From positions 1-64,000 of the IMG/VR virus record IMGVR_UViG_3300028388_003135: a stretch of DNA of 64,000 nucleotides; one strand, 5' to 3'. Below, piece by piece: positions 4,764-61,771 of this stretch. The first letter of the stretch is position 1, and every line of letters starts with the position of its first letter. The stretch is from a virus. The position numbers were made by a program, and so were the translations under genes. Under the pieces are notes generated by a model. The model was not told the DNA's origin. It did no database searches and was given only the letters and a program-made list of their open reading frames with translations.

Positions 4764-4787
4764 GCCCCAAACACAAACGTTTGGGGC
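4764..4787 (+). repeat. Palindrome-containing hairpin, copy 2 of 3
   Basis: The same 9-bp stem (GCCCCAAAC/GTTTGGGGC) and ACAAAC loop as at 1126, followed here by CTTTACGG. It lies between the helical-protein gene and the DUF1257 gene. Confidence 0.6.
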
Positions 4788-4795
4788 CTTTACGG

Positions 4796-6154: not shown

Positions 6155-6178
6155 GCCCCAAACACAAACGTTTGGGGC
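6155..6178 (+). repeat. Palindrome-containing hairpin, copy 3 of 3
   Basis: Third copy of the GCCCCAAAC/GTTTGGGGC hairpin, followed by CTTTCTAATTTGGAGG. It lies directly after the stop codon at 6151 and about 22 bases before the next start. Confidence 0.6.
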
Positions 6179-6199
6179 CTTTCTAATTTGGAGGACACC

Positions 6200-52064: not shown

Positions 52065-52897
52065 CAATCATTGGCCCAAAATGCTGCTGTGGGGGCGACC
52101 CTGGTTGTGCTTCCCCAAACAGTAATCAGTATGCATTGGATCAGTTGGGCATATCGACGCTGACAAGGTCTGGGAATGCGCAATCGATCCTGAACATGGA
52201 GGACTATGAGCCACGGCGACTAACGTGCTCGGGGTTCCCTACGCCCTTTGCATACTACGACTACTTTGGGCCCGCCGATCAGTCAGTGGACCTCACAACC
52301 ACAAACACGACCCTAGCAGAAGTTACGGTCGGGAGAACTGAAGAGAATGGTTGGTTGTACGAATTCAACGGGCCTGGCGGTCCGTATTCGTGTCAAGGTT
52401 TGGCGTTCCAAGATTACTACACAATCCACCCGGCAGTGCGGATTGCGTCATCATTAGAAATAACATGCGAAACAACTTTGCAGGGGGATACGTTCCGCCG
52501 GTGGACGCATCGCATGTCCGTTCAGATTATCTATCTTGGACGGGGCTCTGCGTCTGCGCCCAACTTCGCGGCCTTAGGGACCAATGGGCAGTTCGTACAT
52601 GATACCAGTGAATTCGGTTCGGCATGGATTTCAGGGGCACCTAACAATCAGATTCACTTTATCAGCGATGCCACTACACGAATGGCTTGGACGTTCGGGC
52701 AGGCATTCTTGAATAACCCGCCCGCGTTCAACACAGGGAAAAGCTGCGTGGCGGTTTCGTTATCGGTAAGGCGGGGCCCATTCTTTCTTGAGGAACAAGA
52801 CTATTTGCTTGACGTGCTGCCCATTGCCCCAACGGTAGCGAACAGTAGTTATCCTGACGCGTTCGGACTACTCGTCGGACAATCACAACTCAGCTAG
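52061..52897 (+). CDS. Cysteine-containing virion protein (278 aa)
   Basis: GTG 52061 overlaps the previous stop. The start has a cysteine-rich patch (CCCGGDPGC), then a strand-rich body. A similar arrangement appears in phage minor tail proteins, but I cannot name a family. Confidence 0.55.
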   Translation: MTIIGPKCCCGGDPGCASPNSNQYALDQLGISTLTRSGNAQSILNMEDYEPRRLTCSGFPTPFAYYDYFGPADQSVDLTTTNTTLAEVTVGRTEENGWLYEFNGPGGPYSCQGLAFQDYYTIHPAVRIASSLEITCETTLQGDTFRRWTHRMSVQIIYLGRGSASAPNFAALGTNGQFVHDTSEFGSAWISGAPNNQIHFISDATTRMAWTFGQAFLNNPPAFNTGKSCVAVSLSVRRGPFFLEEQDYLLDVLPIAPTVANSSYPDAFGLLVGQSQLS

Positions 52898-60203: not shown

Positions 60204-60292
60204 GCAGAACGTCGAGCATAACCGGGCCGGGAGTAAATGCGGCCACTAAAAACCAGCGTGAATCCGGCTCCGGTTCATGCGTTTTGTTATCT
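60204..60292. other. attC-like imperfect inverted repeat
   Basis: GCAT-AACCGG-G-CCGG (60217-60231) pairs with CCGG-CT-CCGGTT-C-ATGC (60264-60280), an interrupted stem with unpaired bases, flanked by AAC (60208-60210) and GTT (60286-60288). The layout and the words recall integron attC sites and resemble planctomycete cassette boundaries I remember, but the GTTRRRY core is imperfect (GTTATCT). If real, the 59898 or 60302 gene entered as a cassette. Confidence 0.35.
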
Positions 60293-60301
60293 GGATTTTC
60301 G

Positions 60302-60610
60302 ATGGACCCAATAAACCTGCAAACACCGGAAGAAATGTTGGAGCGATGGAGCGGTGTGCAATGCGAGTGTGACCCCAGCGTTGGGCATCTGTGCGAGTGC
60401 TGCCACGACACCCAAGTGCTGCGGGACTTGATCAAAGAACGTGATCGTCTTCGGGACGGTATCGATTTCTGGTCGTATTGTATGTCGCAAGGGATGCGGG
60501 ACACGTGCCCAGAGCGGGTGGAAGAGTTGGCCGATTTCCTGATGAGTTGCAAGGTGGCACCGTATTACATTCGGAACAAACATTGTGAGACGGTCGCTAC
60601 TGACAGATAA
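60302..60610 (+). CDS. Hypothetical cysteine-containing protein (102 aa)
   Basis: ATG 60302 lies 14 bases after the GTT of the attC-like repeat, as in cassette genes. The product has CECDPSVGHLCECCHD, a cysteine cluster that may bind metal, and a helical end (WSYCMSQGMRDTCPERVEEL). No family is known. Confidence 0.55.
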   Translation: MDPINLQTPEEMLERWSGVQCECDPSVGHLCECCHDTQVLRDLIKERDRLRDGIDFWSYCMSQGMRDTCPERVEELADFLMSCKVAPYYIRNKHCETVATDR

Positions 60611-60797
60611 CGCTTGAGATCATCGAGCACGAAAGGACTACCGTTTGCTGGATAGCGACTGAACGATGGATAAGTTGAAACGGCCCGATAATTGATGATA
60701 TTTGCTACCAGCAAGCAAGGATTGAGTTTTATTGCCCGAAGTGCGGTAGAAAGTATGGAACATTCCTACGCCGAATCATGGGACGCCATGACGAGGC

Positions 60798-60889
60798 TAG
60801 TCGGTCGTCTACTGGATAGGACGCCTGTCGGTGGCGGGCTTGCAATCCGTCAAGACAGGAGAAGCGGGGTTCGATTCCCCGCCCGGCGA
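60798..60889 (+). tRNA. tRNA-like element 2, enlarged anticodon arm
   Basis: A Glu-like D arm (TCGTCTACTGGATAGGAC), a perfect T arm (CGGGG-TTCGATT-CCCCG, 60865-60881) and a 5-base variable loop AGAAG are canonical. The anticodon stem CCTGT (60824-60828)/ACAGG (60855-60859) encloses 26 bases instead of 7. Inside is a further hairpin GGCGGG-CTTGCAA-TCCGTC (60833-60851) whose loop looks like an anticodon loop (T33, TGC). The acceptor TAGTCGG pairs imperfectly with the 3' end. It is probably not a normal decoding tRNA. Confidence 0.5.
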
Positions 60890-60910
60890 TTTAGCCAGAT
60901 AACTTCGGAT

Positions 60911-60931
60911 TATGTTGCGCGGCGCAACGTA
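60911..60931 (+). other. Hairpin before palindrome copy 56
   Basis: TATGTTGC (60911-60918) pairs with GCAACGTA (60924-60931) around GCGGC, an 8-bp stem with one T.G pair. It lies 4 bases before the palindrome at 60936. Confidence 0.5.
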
Positions 60932-61004
60932 TGCTCAAACGTTTGGATTGCTGGGCCGAAAGTCTGCTTGACTAGCGAATAGCATGAGCGTATGTTGCTA
61001 AATA

Positions 61005-61516
61005 GCTGATCAAAGGTCCTGGCGGACAACCTGATTGGCGGACTGACTGACCGAAAGGCAAGTAGAGAACTTTCCTGCGAGGCAACCAACCTTCTGCAGC
61101 TTCATGCTTTCGAGCATGTCTCACTATTTGCTTAGTGTCAGTCCGCGAAGTCCGCCAACCGGTTGTCTCGCAGGGTAGTTCTCATTCTTTCCCAACCTCG
61201 ATCAGCTCGAACATGATCGGGGCGTCTATGTCAGCCCTCGGGCTGCGGTCTAATGGCATAGTGGAGCAGCATGGCGGCGCTGCGTAGGAAAACGGTAGTC
61301 GCGTCCGGCAGGCCAAGAGCTAGCGGACATCTTCATTCCATCTCGTTGAGAACCCCGAGTGCTTGGAGCGTGCGAGGGCCCTTCGTTGGGTGACTGGACA
61401 GCACGTTAAAAACGCGGAGCTTGCTGGGTCATGCTGCGCTCGCGTTGTGGGCCGCTCGGGTCCTTATAGGGTTATGTAGCGTCCAGCTTCACTAAAACGT
61501 TTGGACGCTGATCAAA
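61005..61516 (+). ncRNA. Large structured noncoding RNA candidate with pseudoknot
   Basis: No credible coding frame covers this span. GGCGGAC (61021-61027)/GTCCGCC (61150-61156) and GCGGACTGAC (61038-61047)/GTCAGTCCGC (61137-61146) form helix A. A 23-base helix with one mismatch joins 61065-61087 to 61161-61183 (helix B). The order A-B-A'-B' is a pseudoknot. CC-GAAA-GG lies at 61051-61058, CATGCT-TTCG-AGCATG at 61103-61118, a 9-bp hairpin at 61196-61222, CAGCC/GGCTG at 61232-61245, AACGC-g-GAGC/GCTCGCGTT at about 61410-61445, and AGCGTCCA/TGGACGCT at 61478-61509. Size and tRNA-like neighbours recall GOLLD/ROOL RNAs. Strand + is assumed from the neighbouring genes. Confidence 0.7.
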
Positions 61517-61555: not shown

Positions 61556-61771
61556 ATGCGGGACCGATTTCATTATGACGCGAACGGACGACTGCGAGGA
61601 CGCTCCTCTGATCGCGGACCGGGCGGCGGTTGTGGAATAGTCATAGCGATAGCTGGCTTGATGTTAGTGTTCACTACCGGAGGGCGGAACGCCGTAGAGG
61701 CATTCGGGTTTCTCATGCTCGTTCTGATAGCTGTGGTAGCACTAGCGATATCTATGAGGTTGATTAAATGA
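61556..61771 (+). CDS. Small two-helix membrane protein (71 aa)
   Basis: ATG 61556 follows GAGGGCATGAAAC. A basic Arg/Gly N-terminus precedes two hydrophobic segments (about 26-42 and 48-66). The stop overlaps the next start. The gap 61517-61555 holds nothing I can identify. Confidence 0.6.
   Translation: MRDRFHYDANGRLRGRSSDRGPGGGCGIVIAIAGLMLVFTTGGRNAVEAFGFLMLVLIAVVALAISMRLIK

Follow-up and report, generated by a model that had tools for sequence, protein, structure and literature searches.

Few large structured RNAs have been described in phages, and none has a known role, including the two that assemble into cages. ROOL and GOLLD are tRNA-adjacent phage RNAs that form such cages, and in some GOLLD RNAs the linker contains phage-encoded tRNAs (PMC12286853). 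The most abundant transcript of ICP1 is an RNA of ~800 nt out of a 1-kb gene-free space (PMC7567579), and long noncoding RNAs occur beside the tRNAs of Staphylococcus phage K (PMC10383478). The element described here lies in a gene-free gap of a phage genome, and we give an even chance to the reading that it is a ~600-nt noncoding RNA of the phage with no relatives known.

The window, i.e., the whole stretch of DNA analysed, comprises 64,000 nt of a 64,090-base IMG/VR virus record with terminase, ERF, capsid and AAA ATPase genes. The terminase, the capsid and a tail-spike-like protein encoded in the record indicated a phage. A gap of ~945 bp between the ORFs at 60284-60610 and 61556-61771 houses the structured element, and no convincing gene was found between 60610 and 61556. 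A protein-coding gap was set aside, the frames being closed or implausible. The 96-aa frame at 60692-60982, which crosses the cloverleaf described below, matched no Pfam family. Another frame on the + strand (60685-60818), which is without a usual start codon and overlaps the structured region, reads FYCPKCGRKYGTFLRR and resembles a truncated zinc ribbon; no convincing relative of it was present among the fetched loci. The proteins flanking the gap gave no Pfam match above the cut-off, and most of them lack a counterpart in G010, a collinear relative. To judge from sequence, the gap is part of an accessory region.

The folding strength was evaluated as the z of each sequence relative to its shuffles, in 319 folding windows on both strands at 200-nt steps across the 64-kb stretch. 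The lowest value of the 319 was obtained at 61005-61204, on both strands. The mean over three windows was lowest in the whole phage at 60590-61206 (~617 nt), where z was -5.9 on the + strand and -4.5 on the - strand, and the excess of + over - folding in these windows ranked second of 317. The credible element is this ~617-nt stretch of the + strand, with approximate limits (Table 1). What the computations show directly is a structure signal biased to one strand, a stretch lacking any convincing gene, and a cloverleaf that is the best fold. An earlier note had described an RNA of ~500 nt at 61005-61516, with hairpins continuing to 61509. The structure instead stopped at 61206 and began upstream at ~60590; the part at 60590-61004, which had been missed, was structured as well and more strongly on the + strand. 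The 14-bp stem in this part had a z of -4.3 on +, matched by none of 200 shuffles. No structure above chance was found at 61207-61516, where z was +0.35 on + (38 of 60 shuffles as good or better) and -0.56 on -, and the last hairpin there (61478-61509) includes one of the genome-wide AAACGTTT sites.

Table 1. Features of the structured element and of the adjoining noncoding stretch.
Feature	Coordinates	Strand	Basis
Whole structured noncoding element	60590..61206	+	z, strand excess, no convincing gene
Stem GTTTGCTGG/CCAGCAAGC plus TAGCGA/TTGCTA	60643..60716	+	MFE pairs, p 0.97-0.98; overlaps doubtful small frame
tRNA-like cloverleaf, 102 nt	60795..60896	+	exact MFE of stretch
14-bp stem 60924-60937/60985-60998, two G-U pairs	60924..60998	+	p 0.99 in local fold
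3' domain (~200 nt) closed by stem P1, AGCTGATC/GATCAGCT	61004..61207 (61005-61206)	+	z; P1 p 0.94
TGGCGGACAACC, first TGGCGGAC copy plus GACAACC, rival of helix B for 61161-61167	61020..61031	+	
S1 5' strand (helix A, best register, with 10-bp extension)	61035..61065	+	duplex energy
Helix B 5' strand, GAGAACTTTCCTGCGAGGCAACC	61065..61087	+	duplex energy; 22/23 pairs
Hairpin CATGCT-TTCG-AGCATG within S1 loop	61103..61118	+	p 0.97
S1 3' strand	61124..61158	+	duplex with 61035-61065
Helix B 3' strand, GGTTGTCTCGCAGGGTAGTTCTC, 2 nt after S1	61161..61183	+	
Noncoding 3' part of earlier note, not structured above chance	61207..61516	.	z

The 3' domain (61005-61206) folded equally on the two strands (z of -6.4 on + and -6.5 on -), as expected of DNA inverted repeats. 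Such folding would suit a DNA-level element, in which protein-binding or cruciform inverted repeats act in replication origin, partition or packaging with no functional RNA, and so would the accessory module that adjoins the gene-free gap. This explanation is given a minor share of our belief. Against it, the stretch 60590-61000 was clearly biased to the + strand and contains the cloverleaf, and no GC-skew switch was found.

The cloverleaf had an MFE of -46.8 kcal/mol, and 3 of 200 shuffles were as good. Its acceptor-like stem consists of 5+5 bp with a 4-nt bulge. The D-like arm has 5 bp and the loop ACTGGATA, and the T arm, which follows a short variable part, has 6 bp and the loop TTCGATT. 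The anticodon-like arm is extended to 13 bp (6+7 bp) with the loop CTTGCAA, and no CCA is encoded. The D-like and T-loop sequences are typical of tRNA, and the D and T arms presumably resemble those of tRNA-Glu. ARAGORN reported a tRNA-Ala at 60810-60889, and the best Rfam score of the tRNA type was 21.1 bits (tRNA-Sec), under the cut-off of 47. Hence, despite the ARAGORN call, the Rfam scores below the cut-off and the 13-bp anticodon-like arm spoke against a tRNA; the cloverleaf is tRNA-like, not a normal tRNA gene. As in mascRNA and other tRNA-like elements, a tRNA-shaped part lies in a longer noncoding RNA (model match 18.8 bits), whereas mascRNA is eukaryotic and the match of the element is below the cut-off, with longer arms. 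A cloverleaf below the tRNA cut-offs and without CCA may also come from debris, i.e., a decayed tRNA gene and inverted-repeat insertion remnants that fold well and have no present function. The small frame ahead of the cloverleaf (FYCPKCGRKYG), which is like a broken zinc-ribbon gene, and the lack of conservation in the searched relatives are consistent with this origin. We consider debris improbable, however, because unselected long near-perfect helices would decay fast and the fold signal spans 600 nt with strand bias.

Two long helices occur in the 3' domain. The 22 of 23 pairs claimed for helix B in the earlier note were obtained again on recomputation, with two G-U among the pairs, one U-U mismatch and a duplex energy of -38.2 kcal/mol. 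Helix A, first described as 61020-61027/61152-61159 plus 61040-61048/61137-61145, was present in a better register. TGGCGGAC exists in two direct copies and one inverted copy, and pairing from the second direct copy gave 61035-61044/61149-61158, a 5-nt bulge and 61045-61051/61137-61143, extended by a further 10 bp at 61056-61065/61124-61133. The duplex energy of this stem (S1, 61035-61065 with 61124-61158) was -37.6 kcal/mol. Helix scores were judged against 400 dinucleotide shuffles, with loops of up to 250 nt. Helix B was the top-scoring helix of this loop size in the 64-kb window (50, against a shuffle maximum of 45), and in the related phage and host-linked DNA (574 kb in all) one helix scored as high or higher. 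The crossing pair scored 77, whereas the 400 shuffles averaged 52.7 and none went above 70, which upheld the view that two such long crossing helices are beyond random sequence. The direct and inverted copies of TGGCGGAC would again suit a DNA-level element, whereas helix B argues against it: of its three deviations from perfect complementarity, two are G-U on the + strand and become A-C mismatches if read on the other.

The sequence GGTTGTC (61161-61167) has two possible partners, namely the helix B strand and GACAACC (61025-61031). The nested fold, in which GACAACC pairs with 61161-61167 and B is not formed, had an energy of -86.4 kcal/mol, and the fold with B forced had -79.0 kcal/mol. S1 with the B strands left free had -58.1 kcal/mol, to which B adds -38.2 kcal/mol, giving about -96 kcal/mol before the unmodelled pseudoknot penalty. 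The three values lie so near one another that they favour neither a pseudoknot nor a two-state switch. If both stems form, linkers of 0 and 2 nt join the 27-bp S1 to the 22-bp B, and the helices would need to lie side by side.

The alternative folds, ~7 kcal/mol apart, compete for 61161-61167, and the TGGCGGAC duplication offers alternative partners. Both points are consistent with a cis-acting leader switch, in which the 3' domain would lie in the 5' leader of an accessory operon from 61556, and S1 with GACAACC/GGTTGTC would exclude helix B and thereby set downstream read-through or translation. A promoter-like pair, TTGACT-17-TATGTT, with a predicted transcript start near 61003 also fits. 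However, its -10 match is weak, a U-tract terminator is absent after helix B, and the first gene is 350 unstructured nt away from the domain. We regard the leader switch as doubtful. No strong promoter or + strand terminator was found in the region of the element, which speaks against the reading as a phage noncoding RNA. The HK022 put RNA and attenuator leaders are long hairpins ahead of a phage operon, with put sites of ~65 nt; they share with the element possible alternative folds, whereas the element has no terminator beside helix B.

The element was compared with the known RNA families. It is structured, gene-free and several hundred nucleotides long, as described for large phage noncoding RNAs, and it has the GOLLD location near or containing a tRNA, given the phage record and a tRNA-like cloverleaf among its parts. 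A scan against all Rfam models (cmscan) found no family at the gathering cut-offs, and with permissive filters up to E 10 returned only weak tRNA-like and evident chance matches. GOLLD gave no row in these scans up to E 10, in which its model was run along with all the others of Rfam and without a positive control. The ROOL model (RF03087, cut-off 99.1 bits), run alone on the record up to E 10 without a working positive control, gave no match either. The Infernal check proposed in the earlier note was thus negative for both families, within the same limits. Its idea of a structured phage RNA adjoining a tRNA-like element was statistically well supported, whereas membership in GOLLD or ROOL was not supported, given the lack of an Rfam match. 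A group I intron and a tmRNA were set aside for want of an Rfam match, and a terminator pair for want of a U-tract.

Like GOLLD, the element would be a large phage or prophage RNA with pseudoknots and a tRNA nearby, which in GOLLD is sometimes within the linker. Unlike GOLLD, it has no covariance-model match, measures 617 nt instead of the often >800 nt, and has no recognised conserved 3' domain. ROOL is comparable in length (574 model positions; 659 nt in env-120), pseudoknotted, tRNA-adjacent and found in phages, but RF03087 did not match the element and no kissing-loop or cage-forming element was identified in it. The RNAs of ICP1 and phage K are likewise large phage RNAs with no known function; they were seen by RNA-seq and belong to different phage groups, whereas the element is predicted. 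A divergent GOLLD or ROOL member would be a special case of a phage noncoding RNA, and the comparable size, the tRNA-like element, the phage genome and the gene-free locus agree with it. We consider it very improbable, however, given the negative Rfam and ROOL results and a structured part that stops at 61206.

We read the element as probably like GOLLD, ROOL and the ICP1 RNA in kind, not in family. The phage would transcribe a noncoding RNA of ~600 nt from the + strand, at ~60590-61206, in which the cloverleaf would sit mid-RNA and a compact 3' domain would be shut by P1. S1 and B may cross to give a long-stem pseudoknot, or the RNA may swap between two hairpins. The product would most likely be a stable accessory RNA during infection, with a putative role in trans. 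The cloverleaf is a probable substrate of tRNA-processing enzymes (RNase P or RNase Z type); the 3' domain, once shut, may shield the 3' end and supply a working surface in the style of GOLLD, ROOL and ICP1. A bolder and rather unlikely reading is that of a new ornate class of ~600-nt phage RNA, with a cloverleaf bearing a 13-bp anticodon arm inside a larger fold that ends in a pseudoknot of two long stems (27 and 22 bp, with linkers of 0-2 nt) and possibly assembles or switches. If true, an RNA unrelated to the others, yet with a tRNA-like part built into it, would show that RNAs of this sort have arisen more than once. Moreover, the compact 200-nt domain is a test case for the crossing versus switching of two long stems.

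Relatives were searched at the levels of the element and of the phage, with homologue searches that may omit records very near the window. blastn of the element against phages and plasmids gave chance matches only, and the DNA patterns (duplicated TGGCGGAC, helix B) gave chance matches or nothing in viral contigs. The terminase, the portal-position protein, a single capsid sequence and the 253-aa neighbour as queries found no near relative. A capsid-alignment search kept 80 loci, the best being 58% identical. The nearest relative found was G010 (IMGVR_UViG_3300033067_001375), with 58% identity in the capsid and 57% in the ATPase; it was collinear in a circularly permuted way, suggesting that the two ends of the window join. 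In 20 capsid-linked records including G010, blastn to the element remained at chance level and the single-sequence model of the 3' domain (R1) was unmatched. An ATPase-led genome search reached Acidobacteria, Armatimonadetes and Nitrospirales bins, and the element was not matched in them. The element was not found in the nearest relatives, indicating that it is dispensable for the phage group.

Before its ATPase gene, G010 has a gene-free leader (L282 12900-13120; G010 52500-52720) with a promoter-like TTGACA/TATTAT, a terminator-like T6 hairpin and an 18-bp inverted repeat spanning the hairpin. This long leader upstream of the ATPase operon would favour the cis-acting leader switch, but it had no blastn match to the element and no match to the 3'-domain model, and directly before the ATPase gene is a different place. 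Long inverted repeats near the AAA ATPase gene in the relatives G010, G012 and L302 would favour the DNA-level element.

Other repeats were observed in these genomes. In a Bryobacteraceae bin, the ATPase gene is closely followed by a perfect 25-bp inverted repeat (L302 7732-7957). The palindrome AAACGTTT has 62 copies in the window, ~1 per kb (e.g., at 316, 1136, 2747, 60936, 61494 and 62273), nearly always in the context CAAACGTTTG and often in CCAAACGTTTGG. Matches to AAACGTTTGG with one mismatch numbered 127, against 4.4 expected. The spacing of AAACGTTT was far evener than random (CV 0.45), and none of 2000 random placements was as even. Twenty of the 62 sites were outside ORFs of at least 90 aa, though such ORFs make up 92% of the window. 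In three places (1130-1155, 4768-4793 and 6159-6184), the palindrome sits in a longer, nearly identical sequence, CCCAAACACAAACGTTTGGGGCCT. The core is presumably like the operators of the LacI/PurR type, and the sites possibly form a stoperator-like or genome-organising system. G010 (L280-L283) has its own dispersed palindrome, TTGTAAACGTTTACAA, and 28 AAACGTTT cores in 67.5 kb. Both phages share the core and its dispersal but differ in the flanks, as a shift in the specificity of a phage DNA-binding protein would be expected to produce.
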